A DNA stretch of 64,000 nucleotides from Anadara kagoshimensis (lineage: Eukaryota; Mollusca; Bivalvia; Arcoida; Arcidae), in the NCBI GenBank assembly GCA_021292105.1, contig CM037870.1:43976576-44040575 (forward strand), given 5' to 3'. Positions 18,763 through 58,742 of this stretch are shown in pieces. The position numbers and the translations under genes were made by a program. Positions within the stretch are counted from its first letter, which is position 1, and each line of letters starts with the position of its first letter. The notes beneath the pieces were generated by a model. That model saw only the letters and a program-made list of their open reading frames with translations, made no database searches and was not told where the DNA came from.

Positions 18763-18874
18763 GTTGAGGAGGCACCCAAGTTAAAACACAGATTTCGTCA
18801 TTATTACTTTAATAGATCCAGAACTTGTTTTTTGTGTAAACAGAAGGTCTTAAGTCAAGGAAGTGCTTGTCAAG
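18763..18874 (+). CDS. Exon 'A': first part of a C1 zinc-finger domain
   Basis: This is a 112-bp internal exon between the acceptor tttattttgtag and the donor caag/gtaggt. It opens in phase 0 and leaves one base over. The 37 codons read His-12 residues-Cys-x2-Cys-10 residues-Cys, including RTCFLCKQKVLSQGSACQ. This is the N-terminal half of a C1 (phorbol-ester/diacylglycerol-type) zinc finger: first His, the first CxxC pair and the first Cys of the second pair. The spare base joins in frame to 22339-22376, which supplies the rest. C1 domains bind lipid or protein at membranes. The 10-residue gap is the shorter, atypical form, as I recall it for tensins. A GA microsatellite begins 12 bp after the donor. 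The exon is very likely real; the family name is tentative. Confidence 0.87.
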
Positions 18875-18881
18875 GTAGGTT

Positions 18882-18886
<5 letters not shown>

Positions 18887-18932
<46 letters not shown>
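18887..18932. repeat. (GA)n microsatellite next to a splice donor
   Basis: About 23 uninterrupted AG units lie on the sense strand. They start 12 bp inside the intron that follows the C1 exon ending at 18874. Confidence 0.97.
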
Positions 18933-18936
<4 letters not shown>

Positions 18937-18944
18937 GGGAGAAG

Positions 18945-19100
18945 AGTAGGAGTAATGGAGTTTTATGCCCCAGTCAAGATTCTGTTACTTAATATATATT
19001 GAGGTAGTTATGATGGAGGAAACCAGAGTGTCCTAAAAACACTGCCCTTTGACAAGTTTACTGGCAAGAGAGAGAGAGAGAGAGAGAGAGGGGAGAGAAG
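18945..19100 (-). mobile_element. SINE-B fragment, reverse, ending in GA repeats
   Basis: The inverse tail and body (gttttatgccccagtcaaga, gaggaaaccagagtgtcct, tgacaagtttactggcaag) are interrupted at 19062 by a second GA tract (19065-19091) and GA-rich sequence to about 19140. Confidence 0.65.
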
Positions 19101-19149
19101 ATTGAGAAAGAGAGACAGAGGTAAAGAGAGACAGAGGAGAAAGAACTAT

Positions 19150-20655
19150 ACAACTATTGATGTTTTGACTTCTTTGCTGGAAGGGTAGAAGGTTAGAAGT
19201 GTAAATTGTCATATCACTAGTATTAGCATTTATCAATTGTCTATGTCCATGCATCCCAGTTATGTTTCTTTCCAGTTCTAAATTTGGATAGATCTTGTTT
19301 TATCAAATGCATCGACCTTCAGGCTTGCTAGAGTAATTCTCTGTTTATGTTACAAAGTTATTTTTCATTCATGGTCATAGTCAATTATTTGACACTTTTA
19401 CCACTGTTTTCAGTGACCATTAAATGATAAATCTGCCATGATAGTTTTAGAAATCCTAGGGCATAACCATGGTCATTTCACATCAGTGATTTTCATACTC
19501 AGTGCTGTTTTATTTTATTGAAAATGGTAATATTTATAACAAATTTATGAAGGATGCTCAGATTTAAGGTCTATAGATAATAGACCAAACAGTTTGGTCA
19601 AACATGGGTCAAACTAGGCCAACCCCATTACTAAATGGTAAAAACAAAGCTTATATACCATCAAATGTTTCTAAACAGTCTATATTCACAATAAAGGTCA
19701 AACGGTCACATATTAAAACCATGTATAACTCAACTACTGGTAATTCTAATGGTAAAATGTCCTTGTGAATTTTATTTTTAGCTTGCTTGCATAATAGGCA
19801 GTATGGCTTAGTAATAAGCCTGACTTACTCACTTTAGGATTGACATCTAGTTTTAAAGATGATGTTAAAGTTGTTGAATGCACTATTGTTCGTCTTTTAT
19901 ACTTAGAGACAGTCCTTAATTAAATTTGCTATAGTATCATTTGGTGTCTCATAAAATAATAACAGTATATGTGTTTAAAAACAAAAATACTAACAAGGAA
20001 AAATACACGAAAAATGGAAATAATTACATTTATTTCTGTATATAGAGAAAAAAATCAGCAAATTCACAAATATCGCGATTAGACTAAGAACTAAAACACC
20101 CGTTATGGACCTCATGTTCTAAACCTTTGATATTCAAGCCTGAATCACGCCTGTGTCATAGACTAAATCAGTTTGTCCACTTTCAAAAATTGTGACCCTA
20201 ATGCTTTTTCACAAATGAAAACACTTCAAAACTACATACTTCAAGTCATCTGAAATATTTCTTCTCCATGATTTTGTCAAAACTGATGACAATAATAATT
20301 GTGATATATAAGTGATTTACATTGTAATTGTTGACCTTAGTTGAACCTTTTAATATATGCATATGGGGTTACCTAGGGAACATACTACAGCTGAATTTTA
20401 GTGAAAAATATATAATTTTCTCTATGTAGGAGAATAACGGAAAAAGTAAAAATAAAACTAAAAATATTTTTAGATGCGCTTTTTGTTTCCAAAACAAAAT
20501 ATGATTGTTAGGTTTTAAAAATTTAAAAGGTATAAAAATTATTTATGAAAACGACTGTCTCTAAACATTAAAGATGAACAATAGATGTGCAAAATATATA
20601 ACACTAGATGCTTTTCAAATAGTGTATACCCTAGATTACTGTAATACCTAAAACA
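19150..20655. other. No feature seen (intron-like)
   Basis: AT-rich DNA between the two C1 exons. No further exon, repeat family or RNA gene was recognised. Confidence 0.55.
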
Positions 20656-20662
20656 GCAACTA

Positions 20663-20841
20663 CAGTCAAACCTGTCTATAAATGCCACCCAATGGAACCC
20701 ACACAAGGGGCCTTTATGGACAGGTGGTCCTTATATACAAGTTCAAATGCCATGAATAGATAGCAATTAGGATAATGGTGTACTGGCCTTTAGAAGCAGG
20801 TGACTCTTATATAGAGTTGGCCTTTAAGGCAGGTTCAACTG
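20663..20841. mobile_element. MITE-1 copy, TA-flanked
   Basis: It starts cagtcaaacctgtctataaa and ends ggcaggttcaactg, inverted, with TA at 20661-20662 and 20842-20843. It is the best preserved copy of the family and contains ggacaggtggtccttatata and its partial inverse. Confidence 0.85.
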
Positions 20842-21059
20842 TACTGGTATGTTTGATATGCCAAATCTGAAAACCTGTATAATGAAACATTTTGACAGGA
20901 TTCACTACTGTTATAATTTATATGCACTTGTTTATTACATAGGTATATTATTGTTTACTGGGATATAAATATAGATCCCAATGGAAATAATTTAAGTGTC
21001 AACGTATCATAAATATTTACATGATTTAGATAGCCAGAGTTTGATTTTTGTTAATGATT

Positions 21060-21480
21060 CATCAAATAATCACCATGATAAAGTCCTCACTGCTTCAACA
21101 ATTCTACATCCATTTCTTCTAATCCCATACCCTAGTGGATGTTTTGGACATCACATCTGAATTGGTGCTCTATGTTGGATTTAATAGTTGCCATGATAAA
21201 ATCCTTACTGCTTCAACAATTCTACATCCATTGCTTCTAATACCATACCCTAATTGGTCATCCATGCATTCACATTTGAGTTGGTGCTCTATGTTGGATC
21301 CAATAGTTACCATGATAAAATCCTTACTGCTTCAACAATTCAGCATCCATTGCTTCTAATACCATACCCTAATTGGTCATCCATGCATTCACATTTGAGT
21401 TGGTGCTCTATGTTGGATCCAATAGTTACCATGATAAAATCCTTACTGCTTCAACAATTCAGCATCCATTGCCCCTAATT
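21060..21480 (+). repeat. 119-bp tandem repeat, about 3.5 copies
   Basis: The unit contains ccatgataaaatccttactg, cttcaacaattcagcatcc and gttggtgctctatgttggat. The last two full units are almost identical; the first is more diverged. Degraded echoes (gatagaacctttactgcttc, catccatgcattcac) continue to about 21780, past a G11 run at 21528. Overlapping open frames at 21135-21478 are products of the repeat. Confidence 0.93.
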
Positions 21481-22074
21481 ACATAGTTACCCTAATGTTT
21501 GTTTGTTTGTTTTTTTCTTTTTTTTTTGGGGGGGGGGGTTATGTTCATCATGCATTCACATTGAGTTGGAGCTCTTTATGGTATCCAATATTCACCTATG
21601 ATAGAACCTTTACTGCTTCAACAAGTCTGCATCCATTGCTTTTAATAAATACCTTTAATTGTTTTGCACATGTACATCCATGCATTCACGTTGAGTTAAG
21701 TGTACATATGTGCATTTACATTCAGTTGATGATCCTCTATGTAGGGTTTGAAATTTTTTACAAATCCTTTAGTGCCTAAAAATTAAAATTTTGTACTCAA
21801 CTTTCAGATCTTCAGAAAGTTCACTTGGACTTTCTTTTTAGTCCACCATTTTTAACAACACCCTATGAGCAATTTGTATGTATTTTGCTTTGATAATGAG
21901 TTTGGTTAAAAATATTATTGTGTGAATTCCATGGTATCTCTGTTTCCAGAGATAATATTGTACATCAGTCTGGCCTTTGCAGATAAACAAGACCCATGTT
22001 TAATGGCTGAAAAATAAATAAATAAAGCATTTTTTCATGAGCAATCATTAGCTTTTAAAATTTGGACAGCATTT

Positions 22075-22265
22075 TGGAGTGGAGTGGAGTAATATTATTT
22101 GTTTTACAACCCAGTCAAGATTCTTTCACTTATATTGAAGCAGTCAATTCAGGAATGGTGGGGGAATCCAGAGTGCCTGGAGAAAACCACTGACTTTGGC
22201 AAGCTAACTGACAAACTTTCTCACATTAGAAAGTGTTTTAAGCTGGATTCAGACCTAGGCACTGA
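22075..22265 (-). mobile_element. SINE-B copy, reverse
   Basis: The + strand carries cccagtcaagattctttcac, then cagagtgcctggagaaaacc, gctaactgacaaactttctc and a degraded head (ttcagacctaggcactgag). It lies just upstream of the second C1 exon, with its 5' end toward the exon. Confidence 0.8.
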
Positions 22266-22338
22266 GATGGAGTAATCTATGCTATTTGATCTAAGATGGC
22301 TTTGTTTTTGAATAAACAGATATTTTTTTTCTTTTCAG

Positions 22339-22376
22339 TTTGTAGATATATATGTCACAGACAATGTGAGAATCAG
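22339..22376 (+). CDS. Exon 'B': second part of the C1 domain
   Basis: This is a 38-bp exon with a textbook acceptor (tttttttcttttcag) and a consensus donor (cag/gtaagt). Two bases complete the codon left by 18763-18874, then 12 codons read CRYICHRQCENQ, ending in phase 0. The joined peptide supplies the second CxxC, the x4-His-x2-Cys and part of the final loop. The last zinc ligand of a complete C1 (Cys, eight residues after the previous one) is not here and must be in the next exon, which I could not find. The two exons lie about 3.5 kb apart and are compatible in phase and domain order, which makes chance very unlikely. The gene would be a C1-bearing signalling or adhesion protein; tensin is my leading guess. 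Confidence 0.87.
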
Positions 22377-22571
22377 GTAAGTGTTTTAATTATAAATATA
22401 TATTCATAGCAACTGTATCCACATAAATTAACTAATACAACAACACATATTGTAAAAATGTACAATGCTGTTTTTAAAAATAATCTTAGAAATCATGGAT
22501 TTGTGGGAACTTTGTGGGCATGGCCGATGATCAGTCAATTGATATAGTAATTTCTTTTTCATATACATGTA

Positions 22572-22766
22572 CAGTGAAACCTTAATTTATTGCCATCTTT
22601 TGCTCAGTCAAATTTTGGCAAAATAAAGGGGACTTGGCAATAAATCTAGAGAGTCTTTTAAAGAAAAAACAAGTTGTAGAAGAAACAGATTATGGAGTTT
22701 CAAAATCAGGTGGCAAAAAAGCAAGTTAGCAAAAGTATTCGCAGGCATTATTACAGAGTTTTATTG
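22572..22766. mobile_element. MITE-2 copy, TA-flanked
   Basis: It starts cagtgaaaccttaatttatt and ends attacagagttttattg, with TA outside both ends (22570-22571 and 22767-22768). Interior blocks (ctcagtcaaattttggca, gagtttcaaaatcaggtg) recur at 29582 and 53020. It lies about 200 bp downstream of the C1 exon donor. Confidence 0.75.
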
Positions 22767-22799
22767 TATGTATAGGCATTTATCTCTTGTAATTACAGA

Positions 22800-23145
22800 A
22801 CCACTTTGTCAGCTCAGCTGGTAGAGTGTTCACTTTGTAAGTGGGAGGTTGTGGGTTCAAACCCTGACTCAGGGTCTGACCAAAGCCTTAAAAGTGGCTA
22901 GTGACTGTTCTTTCGCCAAGCACTTGGCATAACAAAATGAAAGTTGCAGTTTTTCAGATGGGAACTTAAAATAAACAAGGTCCTGTGTCACAGTAGGCTT
23001 GGCATGATAAAGAACCCTACAGTATAATGCCATCAGTGCAACGCACAGGCAAAATTTCTGCACTTTCACCTATAGCTTTGTGATGTCTCGATATAAGTGA
23101 AATATTCTTGACTGAAACGTTAAACACCATTACACAACTCAACTC
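22800..23145 (+). mobile_element. SINE-A copy, full length
   Basis: Head: cagctcagctggtagagtgt, then gaggttgtgggttcaaaccc. Body: gtggctagtgactgttcttt, caagcacttggcataac, gtaggcttggcatgataaag, gtgcaacgcacaggcaaaa. Tail: gaaatattcttgactgaaac, then cgttaaacaccatt. Confidence 0.9.
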
Positions 23146-23149
23146 TCTG

Positions 23150-23995
23150 TAATTAGATTGCATACCTGGTGTATGCTTAAGAATTTGAGTTTGGATTAGT
23201 TATTGCAGGTATTTTTACCATCCAATGTATACATGTACCTATCATGCATTCACTTGTTATATACTTTCTATCCAAATTTGTACTTTAAATTCATGATTTA
23301 TTTATAAAAGATAAATATATGTGGGCTGTTATAGAGCTGTTTTGTAACAAGATTACATAATTTTAGACAATTACCTCTTATCTTTGTGACATACAGAATG
23401 GTAAATTGTACTAGGGTTAAACATTTGGTATTTACCAGTTTGAAATAAAATTTAAATTGTTTTGAAGCTTCCTGTTTGTAATATAATGTTGAGTATTTGT
23501 TTGAATTAAGGAACGGTAATAAAAAGCTAAAATTACTTCAAACTCTTGTAGAAAGTGCATTTTATTAGATTTTAAAAAGATGATTGATGAAAATTTAGAT
23601 CAATTTTTGGAAAAACTGTACTTTAAGTACCATATTTAAGAGTTCCAATTTAAGCAAGCTGGCTGCAAATTTGCATATTAAGGATTTCACAATATATCAG
23701 CATATTTAGGTCTTGTACAAGAAATTCAAAAATGGTTCAAGTAATATGTCTATAGCTTCAGTGCAAATGTTGATGTCTTAAGTTTAAGGTTTTAGTCAAA
23801 GGTTTCTTTTTGTGGATGAGCTAGACGTGGCAGTTATCTATGACTCTGACAGATCCTTTTCCCTATTCTTATTGATGGTAAAGTTTTTCTTTAGCTTTAC
23901 TTTGACCTAGATTTGAATCCCACAAAAAGCAAATCCTATTCTGAGAAAGTTTGTCTTTTTGCTTACCATTTTCTCTGGTATTTATCCACCATTTC
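23150..23995. other. No feature seen (intron-like)
   Basis: AT-rich DNA; no exon, RNA gene or repeat family recognised. Confidence 0.55.
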
Positions 23996-23997
23996 GT

Positions 23998-24335
23998 AAC
24001 CACTGCGGTAGCTCAGTTGGTAGAGTGCTCTCTCCGTAAGTGGGAGGTTGTGAGTTTGAATCCCGACCAAGTCTGACCCAAGACTTGAAAGTGGGTAGTG
24101 ACTGTTCTTTTGCCAAGCACTCGGCATTAAGAATGAAACCCATGGTTCTTTCAGATGGGAACTTAAAATAAACAAGGTACCGTTTCACAGTAGGTTTGGC
24201 ACGATAAAGAACCCTTCTTTATAATGCCATCAGTGCAATGCACAGGTAAAATTTCTGCACTGCCTATAGCTGGTGACATCTTGATATAAGTGAAATATTC
24301 TCGACTGGGACGTTAAACACCATTACTCAACTCCT
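23998..24335 (+). mobile_element. SINE-A copy, full length
   Basis: Head: ggtagctcagttggtagagt, then gaggttgtgagtttgaatcc. Body: gaaagtgggtagtgactgt, ccaagcactcggcattaag, gtaggtttggcacgataaag. Tail: gaaatattctcgactgggac, then gttaaacaccattactcaac. It is the best head of the family and is not a functional tRNA. Confidence 0.92.
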
Positions 24336-24745
24336 ATATCTGACCACCTTGATATAAAGAATTTGGCATGGAGTGTAAGGCATCATGATTCCAGTCCACT
24401 CTAATTTGGACTGAGATTGAATCTCATGGTACTGGTAACTGTCTTTAGGACTGAAGATGGACACTGTAATTGACAGAGATTGAAATATCATTGATATAAA
24501 TAACTGTAGTTTGTATTGGAGGGTTGGATACTTTGTAACACTACATAACCTGTTGATTGACAGGTAGTTAGTATGGAGTATTATTGATCAGCTGTGTGTA
24601 ACTTCCTATTAAGTAATTCATTCATCATGTCATGATGAGTTTATCAAAAGAGAAATACTTCATTTAGACCTTTGAACAGCCTCTCTTTATGTCTCATCAT
24701 TATCTAGCAGTTGGGTGGCCAGAGATGTTACTTTGTTTTACCTTT

Positions 24746-24970
24746 GAAATCAAGATATTGGAAAGAATTTTCCCCCCTTTTTCAGAGAATTTTATATGCT
24801 CCTTAATTGCCCAAGTGTCTGTGAAATCAAGATTTTGGCAAGCATTTTTCTCCTTCTTTTTTCAGAAAATTTTATATTCCTGTTAATTGCCCGAGTGCCT
24901 GTGAAATCAAGATTTTGGCAAGCAATTTTTCACTTTTTTCAAAAAAAAAATTATATGCCTGTTAGTTGCC
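24746..24970 (+). repeat. Tandem repeat, about 78 bp, three copies
   Basis: Each unit starts gaaatcaagat(a/t)ttgg, carries cttttttcagaaaatttta and ends ttgccc(a/g)agtg(t/c)ctgt. The starts are at about 24746, 24823 and 24903. The third copy runs into a SINE-B. Confidence 0.9.
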
Positions 24971-24971
24971 C

Positions 24972-25186
24972 CAGATTTTTTGCCCAGTCAAGATTCTTTC
25001 AGTTATAAAATGATTGTGGAGGAAAACAAAGCACCTGGAGAAAACCACCAACTCTTTGGCAAATGAATTGACAAACTTTCTCACACTAGGATCTGCCCAA
25101 GCAAGATTTGAACCTAGGCAGTGAGAGGTACTGTGATCTATCGGCAGGTGCTTTAGCTAGACCACTGGACCACCACACCCCTTTAG
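24972..25186 (-). mobile_element. SINE-B copy, reverse, full length
   Basis: On the + strand: gcccagtcaagattctttca, cacctggagaaaaccaccaa, gaattgacaaactttctcac, actaggatctgcccaagc, aagatttgaacctaggcagt (inverse B box), then gctagaccactggaccacca (inverse A box). The head resembles a serine- or leucine-type tRNA with a long variable region. Confidence 0.88.
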
Positions 25187-25189
25187 ATA

Positions 25190-25785
25190 ATAAAAAGATG
25201 TGGAAGAATAAAATGTAAAAAAAGTTGGGGAAATTTTTATGAAGATGAGTGGTTTTAAAAAGTTTTTTAGAGTTAAAATAAGCATCTTATACACGTTTAT
25301 TACTGTACATTCTCTTTTTTTTACAACCTAAATGCACAACTAGTGTAGAACATAGCAATGAACTGCAATGGTAATATATCATTTGAGTAAGAAGAAATAA
25401 ACGAGTCAGCTGTTCTGTCTAATTACTGTGAAATAGAAAAGTTTACAAGTTGTTATAGTGATTTGCAAATGATCCAGAATAAATCACTACACGGTACCAA
25501 CCCTCCTAATCCGTGTTGCTGACAAGTTTTATGTTTTACTGTTCAAATTTGTTAATAAGTTACTAAACATAGCAGCATCATCAAGGTGCAGCAACCATTA
25601 GTTGATACTTCTGCATGACTAAGTTAAGTTAGAGAAATTCACTTCCTGTATTGGCTTTTTCCTTGAAATGAAGGAATGTCAGATGTAGTGTTAATATCTT
25701 CAATCCTGTTCACATTTTGTCAAAACACTTTGTTCACATAATCATGGATGCACACATGGGCATGCAGACACAAATTTATAGAATC
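25190..25785. other. No feature seen (intron-like)
   Basis: No exon or repeat family recognised. Confidence 0.55.
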
Positions 25786-25788
25786 TTA

Positions 25789-25911
25789 CACCGGCAACAG
25801 TGTAAGACAGAGGATGAATATTTTCCTGTCCAGAACTCACTAAAGCTTGTTCTGGACATTGAAAATATTTATCCGAGTTTTAGATATCTCTGCCTTACAC
25901 TGTTACTGGTG
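25789..25911. mobile_element. 123-bp palindromic element, TA-flanked
   Basis: The left end caccggcaacagtgtaagac mirrors the right end ccttacactgttactggtg. Nested inside are gaatattttc/gaaaatattt and tgtccagaac/gttctggaca. TA stands outside both ends (25787-25788 and 25912-25913). The whole element would fold into one long hairpin. No second copy was noticed in the window. A tiny MITE is the simplest reading. Confidence 0.75.
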
Positions 25912-26112
25912 TATGATTCTTTTTGTCACAAATTTGAAGCAGAAAAACATGTTTTGTAAATAAAAAATTGCATCAAACATTCAGTTTTCAGGCCATCATC
26001 GGTACCTGTTGAAAAAGACATAACTAATTTTGTTGAAGTCCTCACATAAAATGATTATGACGCTATCAATTAAGCGTGTGTGATTGTGACATTGAGAAAT
26101 TGTTGGTTGAGA

Positions 26113-26250
26113 AAAGTGATCTCATCCCTAGGGTGAGACAGAAAAATCTCACATGGGTAAAAACATGGTATTTCCATGTCTCATGTGTGAGAAATGGCTG
26201 TCTTGTATATAGCACTTTAGACCACTTTACTACCAAAGCCCCCTGTGACA
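26113..26250. repeat. Segment with nested inverted repeats
   Basis: gatctcatccctagggtgag, tctcacatgggtaaaaacat and ggtatttccatgtctcatg, then tgtgaga, form overlapping palindromes (tctcac...gtgaga; aaacatggta...ccatgt). Similar tctcacatatgtgagat motifs appear near 41350-41560. The overlapping 95-codon frame has no recognised domain and spans the palindromes. Confidence 0.5.
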
Positions 26251-26369
26251 TGAGAGCCTTTGTCTATCAAGAGTTCATACTTCTACTTGATGTTATGTGC
26301 CCTGTTTATATCAGAAGCCTTAGAGCTGAAATATTGCTTATTCATGTTCTTCTAGATTTATAACGCACT

Positions 26370-26960
26370 GTTCATTGAATTTACCCAACCTTTTTCGTTC
26401 CCAGAATTGCCTTGGTATCAAGGATCTGTCAACATCAAAGTTAAATTAAAATTTATAATTTTGAATTTTCATTTTACCTTTTATTATCATAAAAGTCTGA
26501 CATTACTTAAAGCAGGTTAGAGTCTGTTATATAAGTTTAAATGAAGCCTCTGTGTAAGGGGGTAGAAAATTGCATATAAAATATTATTACATAAATCACA
26601 GCTAGGTTCTGTGTAGGTGTAAAATTCATTAGAAAATCTGAATAAGTAAACTGGATTTTGTCGCTTTTATTTCATGCTGTAGTGACTCTCTAAAGGTTCG
26701 CACATTACAATTTCAAATGCAACGTTTTGATAAGGTAAATTTTATTACACATTTAAGTGAAGTTTAATAATTATGAATTCTTTTGAGTAACCATTTTGAA
26801 ATAAAGATAGTAATTTGTTTTTTATTTTGCCAGTAATCTGATTTAAGTTGCTAAATAAGAAATCTGAACTTTATGAAAGCTGAAAACATAAATCAAGCTT
26901 TAGAGCATAAAATTTGAATATTTTAAAAATATGTTCAACCAGTTTTAAAGTTTTCATCTC
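26370..26960. other. No feature seen (intron-like)
   Basis: AT-rich, no feature recognised. Confidence 0.5.
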
Positions 26961-26965
26961 CTTAA

Positions 26966-27376: not shown

Positions 27377-27379
27377 TAG

Positions 27380-28240: not shown

Positions 28241-28246
28241 TCAGCG

Positions 28247-28249
28247 TCG

Positions 28250-28287
<38 letters not shown>
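28247..28287. repeat. (ATC)n microsatellite
   Basis: About 13 consecutive catcat units follow gcgtcgt. A short (TTA)n run is also present near 28386-28400. Confidence 0.95.
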
Positions 28288-33860: not shown

Positions 33861-33889
33861 GTTAAATAACGAAACCTGTTACTGCAACC

Positions 33890-36614
33890 ATGCTGAAGTT
33901 TGTATCTACAAAGCCACCAAAAGGCAAATCTGTGGACGGTGTCATGGAGACACCAAAGACACACAAGACAAGAGGACCTTTTCGTTTCAAGTATTTCTCA
34001 AAGGAAAAAGTAAAAGAGGATGGAATGGATTCTGATGGAAATGAATCTGGTCGTGATGGTGACAGTACAATGGAGGATGAGGGTGAAGGTCATTATGATA
34101 ATATTTCTAAATATAAAGGTAAGCCTAGTTATGAGTCAGGTCAAGGGTCATTAGACAGAAAAGATTTGAAACGTTCACGATCTCATAGTTCTTCTAGTAA
34201 TGTTGACTCGCCAAAAGGAAGTCTGCTTAGGCGGACTAGATCTAACGAAATGAAAGAACCAAAGCGTCAGGGTGTTTTTCGTCATGTGACTTGGGGCCCT
34301 GATGTTATGGATGGTGATGTGTTTGATAATGTTGATGGAAAAACTGTAAATGGACAGGAAATGACGGTAGGCATGGTGATAAAAAGCAAAAGGAACATCA
34401 TATTATGTTATGGGTAGTGCAAAACATAAAACTAGTGAATCTCAATCTGTTGATCATAAACCTAGCAAACCATCTTATGTCGGGACCGGACCTCATCACT
34501 TCACAAGTCAACCATATGTTACTAGTCAACCATATCATGTCACAAGTCAACCATATCATGTATCTAGTCAACCATACCAAGCAATTAGTGAACCGAGCCA
34601 CATTACTAGTCAGCCATACCAAGTAACAAGCCAACCAAGTCAACCATACCATGTCACAAATGAATCACATCGAGTCACATTTAGCCAACCATATAAGATG
34701 ACAAGTGAATCAAATCACATCACGAGTCAGCCATATGTCACAAGTCAACCACACCATGTCGCATTTAGCCAACCTTATAAGGTGAGCGAACCAAGTCAAG
34801 CATATGTCACCAGTCAACCAAATCATGTTGCATTTAGCCAACCATATAAAGTGAGTGAACCACAACATGTCACAAGCCAACCATATGTCCCAAGTGAACC
34901 ACATCGTGTGACATATAGCCAACCATACAAGGTGACAAGCGAACCAAATCACATCACAAGTCAACCATCTATCAGAAGTGAACCACAACATGTCACAAGC
35001 CAACCATATAATACAAGTGAACCACAACATGTCACAAGCCAGCCATATGTCACAAGTCAACCATATGTCACAAGCCAACCATATAAGGTGACAAGCGAAC
35101 CAAATCACATCACAAGTCAACCATATCATATCACCAGCCAACCATACAAAGCAACAAGTATTTCTGAGCCTATTGAATCAAGGGAAACTTTAACTAGCAG
35201 ACATTTGGATTTGAACAAACCCTCGTATACAATACCGCGACCCTACTTTCCAGTTAGTGACACATATAATATAACTAGTAATGAAGCCTCAATGGCAAGT
35301 AGTGAGACAACTACCTTGTCAAATCAATCAATGTTTGGTGATTATGATGAACTTATTAGTGAACCATCACATTTCAAATACTTTTCAAATACAAAGAAAC
35401 CAACAGGACACAAAAAACTAGATTCCAGAGGCATAGTATCAGAACAAGTTATAGTCAGTAAGCCAAGTTATAGCCAACACCAGCAATCAAATGTGTGTCT
35501 GTTGTCTAATAAACCACATCACTTTCCAGGAGATTTTCCACCTCCTACATCTAAAACGGATTCAATGGGGGATTATGATGATGCATCAGGTGAAGTTGAT
35601 CATAGGACTAAGTTGGATAATGTGACTACCACATTTCAGCCTGTATATAGTGCACCTTATCCTGTAACTAAGGAATATAGCCGCATATCAAGTGATTCAT
35701 TTAAAACTAAGGATCCGGTGACTGTCAAATCATATCATATTACTAGTATACCAGATCTGGTGACCACGAAACCACAGCCGTTATACAGTGTTCCATATTC
35801 AGGTACAAAGGGACATAATCATGCCACTAGTCAATCATTTCCGATGACTTCTGATCATCAGAATACAAAAAATGTCTTCCAGCCATATGTTCAGAATTCT
35901 TTTGTTCCCGTTGTTAGTCACAAAGAAACTGAAGTGAACCACATTACACAGGACACATTGTCAACAACAAGTTTGTCTGTTACAGAACCACAGCTTATTG
36001 CATCATTGTCCAATAATGTCACCAAACTCAATCCAGAGAATAGTCTAAATTATCAGACAGAAAGATCTCATTCAATTAGAAGTGTGTTCAAATCACCAAT
36101 TGACTCACCAATTAGGCCATATTATACTCTTCCGTCATCGAACAAGTTGATATTTTCACCATCTATATATAGTACACCAAGACGTAATAAATTCTCTCCT
36201 GAGGTACGGGATGTACCCTATCACAAAAAATCCTTGGACCCAATGTGGCATCAAAAACCACATGTACCTGAGTACGAGGAAATTGATACGACCAAAATAA
36301 AAACATTCCAAACAAGCAAACAAATATCCAGTGACCAGAAACAAAAGTCAGATCAAGCATTATTTGAAAGTGAGGACTATGACAATTTTTCCGATACAAA
36401 AAAGCAGGATGATAAAAACCTGTTTGACCGAATTCCAGTTTCTTCTGGAAAAAATCCATGGTATAAAGGAAATGTATGGAAACGATACCATGACGATTTA
36501 AAAATAAGTAGAAGTCAAGAAACTCAAAGGCCGCCAGATGCTTTGGCTCACATTCCACAGGAGTCGGAGAACCTGTCATTGCCAGAATGTAGAGGGTACC
36601 AAGGTTCATCACTC
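33890..36614 (+). CDS. Giant N-terminal coding exon, repeat-rich, one frameshift
   Basis: The ATG at 33890 has a good context (aaccATG) and an in-frame stop 27 bp upstream (33863). The first frame runs to a TAG at 34415-34417; the second opens after 34382 and continues to 36647. Removing one A from the A5 run at 34381-34385 joins them without a stop, giving about 908 codons. Coding probably ends at the consensus donor ctc/gtaagt (36614/36615), in phase 0. Residues 1-164 are basic and acidic blocks with RSRSHSSSS and RRTRSNE. About 200-423 is a repeat domain with roughly 18 SQPY motifs (TSQPYHV, FSQPYKV, SEPQHV). The remainder is Ser/Thr/Pro-rich with PVYSAPYPVTK-like and SPI/SPS motifs. Cysteines are rare and there is no signal peptide or membrane segment. 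It is probably disordered. I do not recognise the family. Confidence 0.85.
34381..34385 (+). other. Probable 1-bp frame break (A5 run) in the large exon
   Basis: Upstream codons read ...GMVIK in one frame; downstream codons read AKGTSYYVMGSAKHK in the frame of the repeat domain. The downstream frame has a stop at 34380-34382, so the shift must fall within or just after the A5 run. One surplus A explains it. It could be a homopolymer sequencing error, an allelic frameshift, or a real start of a shorter protein at the ATG at 34410. Confidence 0.75.
34499..35160 (+). repeat. Coding repeat region (SQPY units)
   Basis: The DNA repeats acaagtcaaccatat- and agtgaaccacaacatgtc-like units of 18, 21 and 42 bp. 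Spacing stays in multiples of three, so the protein frame is preserved. Several 40-60 bp blocks are nearly identical (for example acaagcgaaccaaatcacat near 34935 and 35090), showing recent unequal exchange. The long minus-strand frame here is a shadow of this repeat. Confidence 0.93.
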
Positions 36615-36714
36615 GTAAGTAACTACGTCTTCCATCAAGCATGTTAATTATATAATCCATGTTAAAGTATACTGTCATTGACGACATTTATTGTTATGTT
36701 TTTTGTCACTTAAT

Positions 36715-44997: not shown

Positions 44998-45045
44998 ATG
45001 GCAGGTTGTTGTGGCGGTAAACGGTCATCTAAGACCAAGGACAAG
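44998..45045 (+). CDS. Short alternative start exon (Cys/Lys-rich)
   Basis: ATG in a good context (gaaATGG) opens 16 codons, MAGCCGGKRSSKTKDK, followed by a donor (aag/gtatgt) in phase 0. The block is more GC-rich than its surroundings. The Cys pair next to glycines and then a lysine-rich run looks like a short membrane-anchoring N-terminus (palmitoylated cysteines plus basic residues). Residue 2 is Ala, so classical N-myristoylation is not expected. The phase matches the C1 exon at 22376 and the giant exon at 36614, so all could join one acceptor downstream. Some vertebrate tensin transcripts also start with short Cys-containing exons. It is too short to prove by itself; chance is possible. 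Confidence 0.6.
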
Positions 45046-49350: not shown

Positions 49351-49356
49351 CGTCAG

Positions 49357-49428
49357 TTGATATATAGTAAAGATGACACTGCTATGTCATATGGTGTCAC
49401 AGCTCAGCGCTTTGATGATACACAGCAG
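49357..49428 (+). CDS. Candidate 24-codon internal exon
   Basis: This 72-bp block lies between a pyrimidine-rich acceptor (tttttttataaaatcgtcag) and a donor (cag/gtaaat). It is open and in phase 0 at both ends, so it could be included or skipped without changing frame. Codons 5-24 read KDDTAMSYGVTAQRFDDTQQ, polar and balanced, unlike the AT-driven peptides around it. GC content rises sharply inside the block. An internal ATG (49384) would also allow a start here. No domain is recognised and the first residue pattern does not supply the missing C1 cysteine. It fits a linker cassette of the same gene. Confidence 0.5.
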
Positions 49429-49434
49429 GTAAAT

Positions 49435-51965
49435 ATATACAGCCCAGGCGGGGAGTAAGAGGCGTTTTTTGATAAACATGTGTATCATAAAATAGTCTCA
49501 GTGTTTGTTTTTAGCCAAGTGTATCAGACATTCATCTGTGACCTACATCACCAAACATTTTCGATTGATTTTTGTTTTTGTTTCGTAGAGTGGTGGGAGG
49601 TTTTTTCTGGATTTCATTTACTTAAGATGTTATAGTTTTTACAGCAAATTTGAGTGAAGTTTAAAAAAGTGAATTTTATTTTATTTTCGCAAATTGGATT
49701 TATTAACAAAAAAAATGATGGTAAGTGATCATTTTGATTAAGCAACTTTTTCTAGATTTAGACTGTTTTAAAAATTGTTGTAAAGAAAGAAATTTAAAAA
49801 ATGCTAATACTGAACTAGCTTGACTTATGTTATTACAGATTGCTTGTCCAAAGACTGTTATTTTTTTTTCTTGAGAGTAAAAATGACTTTCTGGTCTTTT
49901 CACAGTATAAAACAAAAGGTTACTTATATTGAAATACTGGATTTTAAAATTTAAATTCTTTCTGCCATAAGGTAATTTGAGGCTTAAAACAGTTTGATTA
50001 CTGTGCACAACACTGGTATTGAAAAATTTTACAAATAAATTGCCAGTTAGTACTACAATATTTTAATGTTACAGTGTCCAAAGTTGGAATTACACATGTA
50101 GATCTATAACATACACCAGTAGTCAGTCAAAATGGGATAAAACATCTGTGACATTGAGATAATTGAAGATTTAACTTTAAAAATATTGATCAGAAAATGC
50201 AAACGCTTTTTTAGTTTGTTTAGATGGTAAAATTTTCTTTTTCTCTATGACCTATTGGTTGGCTAGGGTTGAACCGGGTATTTCTGGGTACCTGTATAAA
50301 CTACAGGGAATTAGATATCTTCACAAAGCCTGAAGATGATATGAGCAAACATGTTATACCTTAATGCATCATCTACATAAAAGAAATATTGTATTACATC
50401 ATATTTTAATTGTACCCTACTTATATTTATTGTATCAAGTGTTTTAAAGTCAGATTATGTGACAAGAACATGCTAATAAATGTTTGTGTTGACTTGTATT
50501 ATCATGTAAACATTAATGATATCTCTTTTAACTTTATTTTTTTTTTAAATTATTTATTTTAGTTCTCTTTAAAGAGTGTTTAGAGATTACAAATACTGCA
50601 AATGGACTATCAATTAATATTTTCATTAATTAATTTAAGTCTATAATTGAATTCACTTCATGACATGTATATCTGTGGTCTAGTACAGTTAACATCACTT
50701 CAAAAATCTTTCACTTCAAACTTGAGTTATCTCCCTTTTTGCATCTCATTCTAAATGCAGTTGCAGTAGAGATATAATTTGAAAATTAAAATGTTGTAAT
50801 AAAATGTAATTTATTAAAACTGAGTGTAAATCCTTTATTTAGTTCAAACCTCTTCAATGTCTTATTATTTCTAAATGTATTTAATTCAAGTGGACTCTGT
50901 TTGAGACTAACATATGTTACACTTCAAAACAATAATCCATTTTGAATGTGATGAATTGGGTTTTATTTTGCTGCATTTTGAGTGGGTTCATATTTACACA
51001 CACAATACACATACAAAAAATAGTTTAAAAAAAAAAAAAGTTGCACTACCAGTTTTAATATAGGACACTACTCAGGCATGAGAGATACTCAGTTTTTTGT
51101 GTGTTAGAATTCCAGATTAGGGTCCCCCTCTGAGAAAGTATTCATCTTATCATATTAATCTCTATCTTTTTAAAAATGTCAAACCAAGCCACATAAAACA
51201 TTTATACATGCTATTTGAATAATAATGTTACAAAAATTTGCATAATTTATTCAGATTTTTTTTTCTGTTTATGGATCACTGCAGTTGATATTAAATTTGA
51301 AGTTATTTTCTCTGGGGCATTCAGATTGTGTATGTATCAATGTCTTTTCATCTTTCCTTTTTTTCTCTTGTTTTTTTTTTTATTTTTGAAATTTTTAATT
51401 TTTACTATTTAATGTCTTTTTAAAATTGCATGTTCCACAAAATTATAAAAAATGCATTATGCTATATGCCTGGAGAATATGGGTGAACAACTAAAACATG
51501 CTTGGGCTTGTGTGCAAAAAGGAAAATATATTACACATACATACATTGCTCATTGTTTTTTAAATGAACAAACTGTATTAATAAAAAACTTTATTACTGA
51601 GTGGTAAGGCCACAAGTAACACCCTTCTGATGAATGTATGAGCATCTGGTGGACCGTGCCAGGGTAGCTTTTAAAGGGGCGTCTCACCACTGTGGGTTCG
51701 ATCCTGGTCAATCACAAGAGGGAAAGGGGTTTTTGTTAACATGTGCCTCGAACTACTTTTAACATTGTACTAGTGTATGGTCTAATAGGTTTACACTGCT
51801 AACCTGCAACATTGTTGGCAAGTGCACTAGCAAAGCTATGATAAGCTGCCACTAGTAGAAAACAGATTAGAAACACTTGCACACCACATAAACTTGTGTC
51901 TAGATTAATTCTCGGGATTGATAAAAAGACGAATAGCTGGAAATTGCTGATGTAGAAGAATAAGC
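49435..51965. other. Intron-like DNA with one degenerate SINE head
   Basis: A tRNA-like trace occurs at about 51645-51715 (ccagggtagcttttaaagg, then actgtgggttcgatcctgg). It keeps a good B box but an eroded A box. Otherwise AT-rich DNA with T and A runs and no exon recognised. Confidence 0.5.
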
Positions 51966-51967
51966 AT

Positions 51968-52055
51968 AAAAGGCACTTCTGTATAAAGACAACCTGCTTA
52001 TAATGACCAGAGATATAGGTTTTGTTCAAACCTGTAAATAAAGACCAATCACATA
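51968..52055. mobile_element. MITE-1-like fragment
   Basis: gtataaagacaacctgctta and gttcaaacctgtaaataaag, then accaatcac, resemble the interior and one end of MITE-1. It is truncated, with no TA-flanked ends. Confidence 0.4.
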
Positions 52056-52059
52056 AAAG

Positions 52060-52920
52060 GGAATTTTTTTTTCTTTTTTTATCTTAATTTCCTTTTACTT
52101 AATTCCCTTTTTATTACCCTTTGTAGAGCTTATTTCCAACCTTATGAAAGGGGGACATGAATTTTTTCCGTAGCAGGTGCCCCTGTGCATAGGTTCTATA
52201 TGTTCCTTCCTTTCATAATTGCATAAGGTAGTCTTTTAACAAGATCCAAGTCAGGTTTTAATTCAATTTATATTACAAAAACAGGTTGTCAATGGTTTTA
52301 TTTTTCCTCGGGGACTTGTACTGACAGTTAAGGAAGACCTACTTTTATATAATCAAAATATCTAACTCATTTAAATTTCAAATGAAGACAAAATTGTAAT
52401 ATGAAACGAACCAACGACTGACACTTTAAAATGTCATATTAGATAAGTTCTTTATCAGTTCGTGAACACTCTCGTTCAGATAAAAAACAACTCCTGTTAT
52501 CAACAAATTTTGGACTGACAAAATGCATTTTTTACACAGAATTTGATACCAAAAATTATTTTGTTGTGCAAAAAATAATTCATATTAATCCAAATTGATA
52601 CTGAAAATTACTTTTTTTAAGCGAAATAAAATGATTAAAATTTTTGACACCTGTTGTCAATATAATTCATAAATATTAATGTACATGCATTCTTTGTGAA
52701 TGAGGATGAATTTTTATCTTTGTTGAACACAGGACATTATTCTTCTGTAATAATTGTGTAAGTGTTATCTAATGAATAACAACTTAACAACGGGTAAACA
52801 ATGAATGCACATGCATGTACTGTGTGTTCCACTTGACAATTTATGCACCCAAGGTGTGATGATCTGGTCACAGCTGTTGAAGTGATGAACTAACAGTCTA
52901 CTTTCTTAACCTTTAATTTA
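52060..52920. other. No feature seen (intron-like)
   Basis: AT-rich DNA; nothing recognised. Confidence 0.5.
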
Positions 52921-52926
52921 TACATA

Positions 52927-53190
52927 CAGTTAAGCCTCGATTCATCACCACAATTTTGGGGAAAATTTGGCATTATGAAGGGTTTTGGTGATAAATTGAT
53001 AGAGAACTTTTCTTAATAAAGTTAAAACTTAATTCATCACCATCAGTTGTTCAGTCAAATTTTGGCATTATAAAGGGGTTTGGTGGTAAATCGAGGGAGA
53101 CTTATATAGAAAAACATATAGAAGAATTGGATTTGAGACTTCAAAATAGTTTCTTACTAAGTTATCAAGGGGCATTATAACATGGTTTTA
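52927..53190. mobile_element. MITE-2, composite of two nested copies
   Basis: A left end (cagttaagcctcgattcatc, after TA at 52925) is followed at 53020 by a second, related left part (gttaaaacttaattcatcac, then tgttcagtcaaattttggca) and the shared right interior (gagacttcaaaatag, aggggcattataac). A tandem or nested insertion is likely. Confidence 0.65.
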
Positions 53191-53194
53191 AAGT

Positions 53195-53645
53195 AGTTTA
53201 AATTATAGTTTGATTTGTTCTGTTTATTTTGTAACATTGCTTTGGTTTATCAATTTATGCCATTTGCAAAGTTCGTTGCTAATTATATGTAGTTAATTTA
53301 GACCATTGTTTTTATAAACCTCCAAATTAATGAAAACTTTTTATACAAAATTTTACCATTATTTTGTGAATCTTTGTCCACCACAGGCAGAAAATTATCA
53401 AAAATTCCTCAAACTATTGAAACAAAAACTTTCATTTTGACTTTTTCACCACCACAAAAAAAAGAATTTTATACATAGATAAAGTTGATGTAACACACAA
53501 CACAGTGGTTGATAATTACTGCATACATACACTATAACATACAGTCAGCCTCCCAGCAATCATATGTACTAAGTAACTGAACTGTTAGATGATACTCTCC
53601 TCAGAGATACAGTACTGTACTGTGTGTGTGCTATATTTGACATAG
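53195..53645. other. No feature seen (intron-like)
   Basis: AT-rich DNA; nothing recognised. Confidence 0.5.
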
Positions 53646-53648
53646 CCA

Positions 53649-53655
53649 TATAAAG
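53649..53655 (+). promoter_or_regulatory. Possible TATA box (tataaag)
   Basis: A TATAAAG lies 34 bp before an initiator-like ttcactctct at 53680-53689. The pair precedes the block that ends at a GTAAGT donor (53936). It is weak evidence alone, because TATA-like strings are common in this AT-rich DNA. Confidence 0.25.
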
Positions 53656-53682
53656 ATATCCACATTGTGTACATACTACTTC

Positions 53683-53935
53683 ACTCTCTCTCTACTGATT
53701 TCCAACTACAAGGAGTCTGATAGGTGAATATTCGGAATCTCTCATAACATCCTGTGTCGAATAGAGCCTTCTGGTCTAAAATTGGCTGGTATTCCCGAAA
53801 CACACTTTTTCTACTTCCTGGAACCGATTCAAGAAAAATTAGACTGGTCACTGAAAGGTACTCTGGTGTGTATATTGCCCCTCCCTGATTACTGAATCCC
53901 TGGGGGATGGAATAAGTAACTTGGTACATTAGAAG
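53683..53935 (+). other. Candidate non-coding 5' exon ending in GTAAGT
   Basis: This GC-richer, unique-looking block of about 250 bp ends at a consensus donor (agaag/gtaagt) on the + strand. All three + frames contain stops close to the donor, so it could only be leader sequence. On the opposite strand it holds an 82-codon frame with ATG at 53929 and varied composition. No splice signal supports that reading. I favour a + strand leader exon of an alternative transcript, but both are open. Confidence 0.27.
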
Positions 53936-53939
53936 GTAA

Positions 53940-54515
53940 GTTATAATTGGCTGTTACTTACATAATTCATTTGCATATATTACAGTATATGTCATAAGAG
54001 TTTTACTTTTAGTAACGGTGCTTTAAAGCAAGGTGATATCATTAACACAGGTTATTAGATTTGAGTGAAAGTGTAACTAAGATACCAATTAAGCCATAAA
54101 AATGTTACAGCCCTCGGTGTCTACAGTTCAACAGGTCATCTCTTTAATAAATGTTTATAAAGGAAGTTGTTTTAGATGGATTACACAGATAAAGGGGAGT
54201 TAATCCACATTTTTTTGAAGTTCACACACCTGTTTGTCATGACCTTGACAGGGTGAGACATTAAGTTCTTGATTTATTAAGGATAAAGTCATTAAACCTC
54301 ACCACATATACCAAATTATCTTTATGTCATTATACATTGTTGTCATACTGTTGTATGTTGTTTATAAATGTTTTTGTTTTGAGAAAAATATGTGTATTTT
54401 ATCTTGAAACTATTTTTGAGTTTAACTTTAATCAGAAGTTTAGGTCATTGCTATATATAAACCTTGTTTTGGTTGATAGATATGTTATAGTAGAAGATTT
54501 ATGATTCAAAGTGCA
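53940..54515. other. No feature seen (intron-like)
   Basis: AT-rich DNA; nothing recognised. Confidence 0.5.
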
Positions 54516-54524
54516 TGTGTTCAT

Positions 54525-54665
54525 GCTCTGGCTGGACTGTGTTCATGCCCCGGCTGGACTGTGTGGCATGGCCCGGCTGGACTGTGTTCATGCCCCGGCT
54601 GGACTGTGTGGCATGGCCCGGCTGGACCGTGTTCATGCCCCAGCTGGGCTGTGTGGCATGCCCTT
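54525..54665. repeat. GC-rich 45-bp minisatellite, three copies
   Basis: The unit ggctggactgtgttcatgcc, then ccggctggactgtgtggcat and ggccc, is made of two half-units of about 22 bp. It is strikingly GC-rich in an AT-rich setting. Frames on both strands stay open because 45 is a multiple of 3; they are repeat artefacts. Confidence 0.95.
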
Positions 54666-54669
54666 GGGC

Positions 54670-56635
54670 AAGACATTTGATTTCAAACATTGCTTCAGTC
54701 TGTACTAGCTTAAAACTGTAGAAATGTTGTGACTTCACCTTCAAATTGGTTGGAATTGCATCAAAATGGTAGTTGAACACACTCAGTTCCCTTACATCAC
54801 TGAAACAGGGCTTTTTGTATGGTTCATACAAAGTTAGTACCATAAGATATCATGATTCCATTTCTAAGCCAAGTCTGAGTCTAGACTTCAAAATGAGGAT
54901 GTGACTGTTCTTTGCCATTCAAAATTAACAGACATTTGTAAATTGTTTGTAACTTCATGATATAAATTAGGAACATTGTTGCTCAAAATTGAAGAACTTG
55001 TGACAGGGCTCCAGACTGCATGTAAAATGTGACCCCAAACTGTTGTTCTTCACGATACTATAAAGCTACTTAAATCTCTCAACATGAGATTATGAAAAAT
55101 AATATTTTGGAATTTTGTAAACAAATTTGTTTTATCAGGAGGACTGTGTCATTGTTGATGGGTTTATCTGTCACTGACCTTACAGAAGATAATTTTAGGG
55201 CCATTTCACAGCTTCGTAATTTAAATTTAAGGGTCCTTGTTGATTGGTTTATCTGTCACTGACCCTAGGGGAGATAATTTGATGACAGCATAACCTCAAC
55301 ACTGGTCATGATGACCACATCACATGACCACACACAAAGTAGTGATAACCCTATATCTTGTTGTATTTATATGAAGTTTTGGGTGACAAACTAGATCGAG
55401 TTCAGAGTATCCATACACAAGTACCACTTGTGGATAAGTAGGTTTTCTGTTCCATATAATTGATTAAGTAATTACTTTTTGAAGGATAAATGTTTTGTCA
55501 ACAAATTTGAGAAACATCAGAACAAAAAAAATTGTTGTGTCATCTTGTACTCATTAAAAATTTCTGAACCACGGGTATCTGTTAGAATGGTTTGATTAAG
55601 TGTTATTAAACTTTAGTATGACAATCTTTCCATCATTGACGTTTGAGATTGAAGGTTAAATACTCTATACTTATAATTATATACCCTGGTTGGTCTAGTA
55701 GGGCTGGGTTGTGTGGTAGTAAAGTAGACAAAACAACTCTTATCTTAGTATACAGTTACTGTAAAATCTGCCTCAAATGAAAAAGTAAAATAATAAAAAA
55801 GCAATATAATATACTATTTTTTTATTTATACCAGTGGAATTTCTCAAATTTGTTTTTAATTTGAGTTGATCAAATGGAAGGCGAGACCAACCCCAATGTA
55901 CTGCATGAGAAAAATGTGTTCCTTGCCACTGTTTGTCTGCTTATTGGCAGGAGCATTGTCACGGAAATGGTTTGAGTGATTTAGGATGACATTGTTGCTC
56001 ACTTAGCTAATACATTTATAAGTCACAATTGGTATGCTTGACCAAAAATCCTTGCATAGACCTAACATATTGATTACATTAACAGGGATTGTCTTTGCAA
56101 AGCAATGCAACAAGTACAACAGCATGAAGGGAAAACAGATATTTTTATATGCCCCCTTTTTAAAATTAAGTAATGAGTGATACTACAAACAAAGTAATTG
56201 CCATTGTTTGACACTATGATCTTCAGTAGCGTCTAGTTACATGAAATGCCTTTGATTGTGAAGAATATAGGACTTGATTTTACTAATTGATAGTGTAACA
56301 GCTGAAAGCCATGGTTAAAATAAAATAGATAAAGTTAAACTGGTAACACCCATACATTGCCTGTGAGACATTATAATTGGAATGTCTTAATGATGCTGCT
56401 CACTCACTGGTGGTGTAACACTTATATACTGAGGTTTTTCAGTGTGTTTTGAAGTGTCCAGAGAGTTATGAGTACCACCTTTGTTGTGTAACTAATTACA
56501 TTGCTGTATAACTAATCATAGTGCCTAAAAATTATGGGTATTTTAAATACCTGGGTGTTTAAATTCCTAAATTCTTGGTAAATTATGACTATAATTTAGT
56601 TACTGCTCAAAGTCGCACTTAGCATTTTGCAGCCA
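54670..56635. other. No gene seen; one short direct duplication
   Basis: A block of about 105 bp is partly duplicated at 55148-55285 (ttgttgatgggtttatctgt / ttgttgattggtttatctgt, then cactgacc and gagataatt). Otherwise featureless. Confidence 0.5.
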
Positions 56636-56639
56636 TTCA

Positions 56640-56875
56640 CCACTGGAGCATCGGTGGTCTAAAGTATGGAACACAGGGCTTCCTACTGCCTAGAATCCCA
56701 CTCTGGTCCTATCATAGCATGAGAAAGTTTGTTACTTGATTTGTTGAAGGTTGGTTTTTGTCTGGCGCTCCTGTTGCCTCCACCATCCCTAAACTGGCTG
56801 CCTTGATAAAAGTGAAAAAATCTTGACTGGGACATAAAATTCCATTACTTCACTGCACTCCATTTCATTCATGGC
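56640..56875 (+). mobile_element. SINE-B copy, nearly full length
   Basis: Head trace gagcatcggtggtctaaagt, B-box region ctagaatcccactctggtcc, body gagaaagtttgttacttgat, gaaggttggtttttgtctgg, gttgcctccaccatccc, and tail gtgaaaaaatcttgactggg, then acataaaattccattac. Confidence 0.85.
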
Positions 56876-56879
56876 CGAT

Positions 56880-57840
56880 TTTTGAAAGTGCTCAATTAAT
56901 AAAGATGATCATGTGATCCACTGAGGTCAAGGTTGAATTAACAACTATATCAGTAAATTTTCAATTCATTGGCAGGTTTATAATTGGAAATTACTTACTA
57001 CAGTAGTAGTGTTAGGTTTATTTGCTTATTTCCTATGATATTAATTACAACTTGTTATTAAAAACTTCAATGATAAGAGTTTCCTGTGTGTAGCCTTATC
57101 CCAGGCATTTCATATTGGTTCTCTGTGCACAGTGTGATAATTTTCCTCTATAATCCAATTGAAAACGATATTACTAACTTTTTGACAGATTGCGGACATT
57201 TGTGTGACTACTATCAGTTGGTTTCTGGGATATTATGGATTTAATAATGATATTTGGAATTTACTAACATATTTTGTAGGATAACAGAATCAATAGCAAG
57301 GTATTATTTATATAGGCTAAAATACATTATCAAGTTGTTACAATGACATCAAGATTGTTCTAGGTTAGTAGGGGTTTAGCTTGCCTATTACATTATGTTG
57401 TATCTTTGGCGTGGGTGTCATTTTCAGACTGAGTGTTGATGTTCAATGTTAAAGTTTTCTAAAAGGTAAAAAATGTTAAGGTGGATGTCTAGTTTCATTG
57501 TCATCATTTGAGTCTTGATGGCCAAGTGTACACATGTACATAGTTTATCCTTGATGCAATGTCTGATTGCAGATTGTTATCAAGTAATGAAGTTGAAGTA
57601 GTCTAAAGGCCCGTTTACACCATAAGATTTGTCATATAAAATTTGTTATATAATACAAATTTTATAGTGAAAAAACCCCTTATGACTCAAAATAATTGCA
57701 GGCATGATTTGCCATGGCAAAATAGAACATGAACTTCTTGAAAACTTTTAAGCATGATTGTGCTATATGGTTCCCCTCATCATTTAGGTTTATTTGTAAA
57801 TCCTACTCTGACAGGTCTTAGTTTTATCAACTTTGTCAGT
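56880..57840. other. No proven feature (intron-like)
   Basis: A possible 21-bp microexon lies at 57280-57300, with a TACTAAC branch-like motif and ttttgtag acceptor upstream (see findings). Otherwise nothing is recognised. Confidence 0.4.
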
Positions 57841-57849
57841 TGCTTGCCA

Positions 57850-58138
57850 CAAGTTTTCTGTGAATTCTGGTTTCCTGCACCATCTTTACAATTGGAGGAT
57901 CCCTGTTACACATTATTAATGTAATGATGTAAGACTGGCTATGACACTGATTTCTTTGTCAATTAAGCATTTTATCTTCAGAAGTGGTTCGCTGTTTCCG
58001 GAATTCTGGTTTTCCCCACCATCTTTATACTTTGAGGATTCCTGTTACACGTTATTGATGTAATGATATCAGTCTGCATGTGACACTAATTTCTTTGTCA
58101 ATTAAGCGTTTTATCTTCAGAAGTTGTTGGTTTGTTTC
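57850..58138 (+). repeat. Two-copy tandem repeat, about 138 bp
   Basis: gaattctggtttcctgcacc, then gttacacattattaatgtaatg and ttctttgtcaattaagcatt, recurs as gaattctggttttccccacc, then gttacacgttattgatgtaatg and ttctttgtcaattaagcgtt. The first part of the unit (gttttctgtgaattctggtt) echoes SINE-B, so it may derive from a SINE. Confidence 0.88.
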
Positions 58139-58139
58139 C

Positions 58140-58613
58140 TGTAGGAAGTCGGTGGGATAATTGGGTGTGTTAAGATTATCTTAAATATTCAGCATACAGT
58201 ATCTCCTTGTTATGTTTACAAATGACATCACTGTACCATACTTAACATTTTTGTATGTTTACATATTAAATGATAAATTGTGTAAGAAAATATGAAAATT
58301 TTAATTCTTAAATAAAAAATGAATTAAAATTCAGTTAACGTACACTATTGTCTACAAATCTTTAATATTTTACTTTAAATGTTAATTATACTATTGGTAG
58401 TATTTGTTTAATGTAAATATATTTGTATTTAGAATTAATTTATTTTATTTCTCCCAATTTCTGCCTCTTCTGAATACAATACTGCTTTCTTTTTTGCATC
58501 ATGTATGTGAATTCATGTATGAATTTTAAGTGGTATTTGTAACAGCCCACATGTGCATTTCTTGTCAATATTTATATTATAACAACACTAACTTGTCAAG
58601 TTAGTTAAAGTGA
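58140..58613. other. No feature seen
   Basis: AT-rich DNA upstream of the candidate start exon; no promoter motif can be assigned. Confidence 0.5.
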
Positions 58614-58676
58614 CAAAAAGACCCAAATCCAATCCAAATATTTTATAATCGTTACAAGGAAATTGACTATAAATTA

Positions 58677-58742
58677 ATGGATCCTGTTTCTGGTTATGAC
58701 AACTGGGAGGATACACTACTGCTTAAAATTGCTACCAATGAG
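58677..58742 (+). CDS. Candidate start exon, acidic and aromatic
   Basis: ATG at 58677 (ttaATGG) opens 22 codons beginning MDPVSGYDNWEDTLLLKIA. A donor (gag/gtagga) follows, in phase 0 like the other candidate exons. The composition is coding-like and clearly above local background. The same frame is open upstream to 58614 and also reads plausibly (…YKEIDYKL…), so the exon could instead be internal, with an acceptor near 58620 or 58658. Neither acceptor has a good pyrimidine tract. It contains GYDNWED, recalling the acidic-tyrosine motifs of the giant exon. No domain is recognised. It is the last candidate exon before the window ends. Confidence 0.5.

Follow-up and report, generated by a model that had tools for sequence, protein, structure and literature searches.

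The window, a stretch of 64,000 nucleotides from the bivalve Anadara kagoshimensis (C14:43976576-44040575, + strand), is probably the 5' region of an invertebrate tensin gene on the + strand. Its putative features are two exons of a C1 domain (18763-18874 and 22339-22376), a long exon (33890-36614) and three short blocks that end at GT donors farther downstream. Tensins link cell adhesions with the cell skeleton; they localize to integrin adhesions and bind actin. The genome searched comprises 1.115 Gb in 36 contigs, and the flanks were read for 50 kb upstream and 200 kb downstream of the window. Positions past 64 kb continue the numbering of the window, and upstream positions are negative. 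The original prediction named five GT donors and three ATGs (33890, 44998 and 58677) as signs of alternative first exons of one gene. All eight signals are present; a simple donor matrix gives scores of 9.0 (22377), 2.2 (36615), 5.2 (45046), 4.7 (49429) and 5.3 (58743) for the donors. The first codon model was trained partly on pieces of the window, and a later one used 1343 codons from predicted exons downstream, without window pieces, these exons having been chosen by the first model. Ten other open reading frames of the window, for which 59 are listed, gave no Pfam match above the family cut-off. In the window ARAGORN found 0 tRNA genes, and 0 Rfam families reached gathering scores.

Beyond 64 kb, PTEN-like phosphatase, C2, SH2 and PTB regions are encoded on the same strand. 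The + strand exons were chained by a small splice-and-codon program with the start fixed at 85056, which gave 1422 residues and left a gap of one or two exons in the interval 86697-93716. The first phosphatase exon (85056-85191, + strand, phase 0 in) reads SSFSGSTTQQPAAMSTLRDMIHRSHDQTEDDHQVLDLVYITERII, and its end, LDLVYITERII, continues as SMSFPSEG in the next exon. In Pfam searches the chained exons matched PTEN_C2 (E 3.5e-20), SH2 (E 3.6e-12) and PTB (E 9.2e-22), with SH2 followed by PTB on one strand, and the phosphatase part scored 20.7 bits against Y_phosphatase, slightly below the cut-off of 20.9. Compared with solved structures, the phosphatase part matched 14 distinct sequences (PTEN, auxilin, voltage-sensing phosphatases and TPTE2), the best being PTEN at E 4.9e-28; no tensin chain is among these 14. 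The two marks of a tensin, a PTEN-like phosphatase region with C2 and a C-terminal SH2 followed by PTB, were both found, and the domain order of the predicted downstream exons is that of tensin. A plakin identity was considered and rejected: none of the 33 CH-domain matches listed genome-wide is on C14, and the downstream exons are those of a tensin.

A query of the genome with the phosphatase part returned one tensin locus with three exon matches, and four other matches that were weak (35-42% identical). A second copy of the 3' part of the gene, reaching from the long middle exon as far as PTB, lies downstream at a distance of about 1.53 Mb (C14:45616283-45643864) and is 97.7 and 99.0% identical to the tensin in two blocks of the 8 kb that were read (45637001-45645000); no second phosphatase copy in that interval is among the phosphatase-query matches listed. 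This copy is compatible with either a haplotype duplicate in the assembly or a recent segmental duplication. Its long exon is broken into two frames, which shows that coding indels are present at other places in the assembly. A separate observation on the assembly concerns four COX1 matches with in-frame TGA at C4:4487676-4537603, on a contig of 59 Mb, which are either mitochondrial insertions or misassembly. In the one match that was read, the longest open stretch under the invertebrate code spans 555 codons, extending beyond COX1, and holds 11 TGA, 7 AGA and 10 AGG; its codons fit the invertebrate rather than the vertebrate mitochondrial code.

The expectation that a single gene would have a phase-0 acceptor past 64 kb is borne out by the exons 75836-75874 and 85056-85191, both of which start in phase 0 and lead into the tensin. 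The single shared acceptor that was envisaged is replaced by two candidates, 75836 and 85056. The exon at 75836-75874 (39 nt, + strand, phase 0 in, VMTSCVPQVNHEV; acceptor 7.7, donor 6.3) was first picked out by splice signals alone. Among the 53 open acceptor candidates between 22.5 and 85 kb it is the sole one with an acceptor of at least 7 and a donor of at least 6, a combination present in 0 of 300 control candidates, which were taken from the minus strand, from both strands of the upstream 50 kb and from both strands of 142-264 kb. Of the 53 it alone has a cysteine at the required fifth codon, which is weak evidence by itself because 16 of the 300 controls carry it. What counts is the joint fit, in that the best splice candidate is the one bearing the cysteine, about a one-in-twenty coincidence if the two were unrelated. 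With codons added, the combined score of this exon is 16.2, and two internal-exon candidates on the minus strand reach 20.1 and 16.5.

The required cysteine is that of the C1 domain, which would be encoded by two internal exons on the + strand. The first part lies at 18763-18874 (phase 0 in, phase 1 out; acceptor 4.8, donor 6.5) and the second at 22339-22376 (acceptor 5.2), ending in phase 0 at donor 22377. Both score negative on codon usage (-3.3 and -3.1, respectively), which counts against the C1 route. When spliced straight to 85056 the two exons give 31.1 bits against Pfam C1_1, when joined through 75836 they give 34.5 bits, and with 49357-49428 in place of 75836 they give 31.6 bits, so that the match exceeds the curated cut-off (26.5) with and without 75836. 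Against solved structures, the two exons alone found one match (E 9.7e-4), and the two exons plus 75836 found 31 matches at E of 0.01 or less, the best at 2.7e-5; the alignments with PKC beta and RAF-1, the two displayed, extend to the last C1 cysteine when 75836 is included. The complete set of C1 zinc ligands, including that last cysteine, would arise only by splicing to 75836, a junction that we infer. Direct joining of 22377 to 85056 was judged less likely, as it leaves the C1 without its last cysteine. Exon 18763 opens in phase 0 as an internal exon, and its first exon should therefore lie elsewhere; none was established in the 50 kb read upstream, where -31697 to -31590 is a candidate for such a first exon. 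Upstream of the C1 exons the window also holds a minisatellite (7366-10162) of 50 copies of a 56-base unit with 97% matches.

The long exon (33890-36614, + strand), probably a first exon, would encode a repeat-rich N-terminal region. It had been described as one coding block from ATG 33890 to donor 36615, which does not hold for the sequence as assembled: there are two overlapping open frames, 33866-34417 and 34383-36647, ATG 33890 belongs to the first, and it is only with the second that donor 36615 is in phase 0. Up to that donor the second frame provides an open stretch of 744 codons, and the coding score of 34410-36614 is 238 bits. The codon signal switches frame by one base near 34370-34400. 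The possibility that an intron separates the two frames was rejected because every AG in 34380-34700 scores -1.4 or lower as an acceptor; an indel, real or of the assembly, appears to fit better. A frame change of this kind with no splice site would be seen with an assembly indel, a broken allele or a real frameshift. Upstream, an in-frame stop at 33863 and the absence of any AG between it and ATG 33890 make the block read as a first exon. Donor 36615 is a weak GTAAGT, the open frame ends 33 bases beyond it, and stronger phase-0 donors occur within the second frame, e.g. at 36204 (5.3). SQPYHVT-like repeats abound in the predicted product, for which Pfam gave no match at E of 0.1 or less. In the genome search with the long exon, 60 of 995 candidates were scored and 57 matches listed, of which one is full; the other 56 cover residues 12-312 only, at low identity. 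Acidic tyrosine motifs of YDN type (HYDNISK, DYDNFSD, GYDNWED) were noticed in 33890-36614 and 58677-58742, possibly by chance.

All five donors were said to fall on a codon boundary. For 22377 this stands through the C1 domain and for 36615 through the frame 34383-36647; for 45046, 49429 and 58743 it is conditional on the ATG or frame that is assumed. The common phase is thereby one of two anchored donors with two acceptors, the three short blocks being frame-dependent. Two of these blocks are possible short first exons with their own ATG on the + strand: 44998-45045 (MAGCCGGKRSSKTKDK; phase 0 at donor 45046, total score 10.1) and 58677-58742 (MDPVSGYDNWEDTLLLKIATNE; donor 58743, total 8.4). 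The third, also on the + strand and ending at donor 49429, is either a possible cassette exon, 49357-49428, or a first exon from the in-phase ATG at 49384 (MSYGVTAQRFDDTQQ). As an internal exon 49357-49428, which is open and in phase 0 at both ends, scores 18.0 and ranks second on the + strand in 1-85.5 kb outside the long exon, with 20.1 as the minus-strand best.

There is close to an even chance that, of these pieces, the tensin gene includes only those of the C1 route and perhaps the long exon, the short blocks being ATG-to-GT stretches that occur by chance in AT-rich introns. Counted over the window, ATG-to-donor blocks with a length of 14 aa or more and a donor score of 4 or more number 12, 5 and 8 in phases 0, 1 and 2 on the + strand and 4, 7 and 5 on the minus strand, and half of the 12 (6) are inside the 34-36.6 kb exon. 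In a control with the long exon hidden, covering the 50 kb upstream and 1-85.4 kb, blocks with a total of at least 8 were distributed over phases 0, 1 and 2 as 7, 3 and 2 (+) and 6, 5 and 5 (-), and those of at least 10 as 2, 2 and 0 (+) and 4, 3 and 2 (-). The masked phase-0 blocks at totals of at least 6, 8, 10, 12 and 16 amount to 12, 7, 2, 1 and 1 on the + strand versus 15, 6, 4, 2 and 0 on the minus strand, and ten Markov sequences gave means of 7.3, 3.3, 1.0, 0.3 and 0.1 at the same thresholds. As a set, the three short blocks do not go beyond chance or the minus strand, and 45046 and 58743 individually are not above the minus-strand control. Against a chance origin, however, 49384-49428 taken as a first exon scores 16.5 and is the sole one of the three above the minus-strand best (15.3), and each of the three stretches occurs once in the genome, none being a known repeat here.

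The view of the blocks as alternative first exons holds in part: it is probable for the long exon, a cassette is possible at 49357-49428, and 22377 fails it as the end of the second of two internal C1 exons. An alternative, in which the blocks are consecutive or cassette exons of a single long N-terminus, is unlikely. The internal position of 18763-22376 and of 75836-75874 agrees with such an arrangement, as do the open frame and matching ends of 49357-49428, but the stop at 33863 and the missing AG bar internal use of the long exon at its ATG, and the AGs between the upstream stop of 44998 and its ATG all score below -10. More doubtful still is a long exon that forms a separate gene or broken copy within a tensin intron, in line with the lack of a Pfam match, the frame change and the weak last donor, but at odds with a single full match among the 57 listed in the genome and with an open frame that closes so soon after a phase-0 GTAAGT.

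The arrangement considered likely is a single tensin gene with a common body to which several N-terminal pieces are spliced in phase 0. The sequence itself identifies the gene, gives the frames and shows that the two anchored donors agree in phase with the two acceptors; we infer the use of the junctions, the internal promoters, the exon status of the three short blocks and the consequences for the protein. For the C1 route there is good support for the predicted single gene, with its phase-0 acceptor past the end of the window; the long exon is a probable part of the tensin gene, the 49429 block a possible one, and the 45046 and 58743 blocks are only possible parts. The C1 route would run from 18763-18874 through 22339-22376 and 75836-75874, which would supply the last zinc cysteine, to 85056-85191. 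The other routes, the clearest being that of the long exon (33890-36614), would start at internal promoters and join the acceptor at 75836 or 85056, skipping the C1. Promoter choice would in this manner give an adhesion scaffold an N-terminus with a C1 domain, with a long flexible tail or with a short one. Provided that the first exons are real, a single gene would switch such a scaffold among C1-bearing, long-tailed and short N-termini through its promoters.

A tensin gene that combines a C1 domain with a very long N-terminal exon looks new, the phosphatase part of this gene having been found once in the genome; among the open-licence titles listed on tensins none concerns a mollusc tensin or a C1 in an invertebrate tensin. 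The C1, if joined as proposed, suggests an origin older than TNS2. A 2025 review, in the text available, describes the C1 as exclusive to TNS2 and suggests its late acquisition (PMC12383349); a C1 in frame with an invertebrate tensin body speaks against both. A bolder and tentative proposal, held with well under even confidence, is that one invertebrate tensin gene makes, through promoter choice, C1-bearing TNS2-like forms, C1-free TNS1/3-like forms and forms with a flexible tail of about 900 residues. If true, the C1 would be ancestral to tensins instead of having been gained late by TNS2, and what one gene did by alternative N-termini would have been divided among the vertebrate paralogues.

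Among known tensins, the gene shares the order of phosphatase-like, C2, SH2 and PTB regions with vertebrate TNS1 and TNS3, which the available text of PMC12383349 describes without the C1 domain that is predicted here. Alternative promoters are described for mouse Tns3 in excerpts of PMC9596163. From the accessible part of PMC10379045, in which the term "C1 domain" has 0 occurrences, worm tensin has all domains of TNS1-3, and fly blistery, unlike the gene here, has SH2 and PTB only. The closest parallel is human TNS2 (C1-TEN), for which excerpts of PMC5122378 report alternative first exons 1a, 1b and 1c that give the isoforms V1-V3 and add 35, 25 and 19 residues, differing among the isoforms, at the N-terminus ahead of a C1 that they share. 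The authors saw no difference in localization among the isoforms in that text (PMC5122378), which argues against a large functional effect of short N-termini. As in the excerpted account of human TNS2 (PMC5122378), alternative short N-termini would be combined on one tensin with a C1 ahead of the phosphatase-like region. Unlike the three human first exons, which in that account all lead into the C1 and add 35, 25 or 19 residues, the candidates here are located 3' of the main C1 exons, so that a complete C1 would be skipped; one candidate spans about 900 codons.
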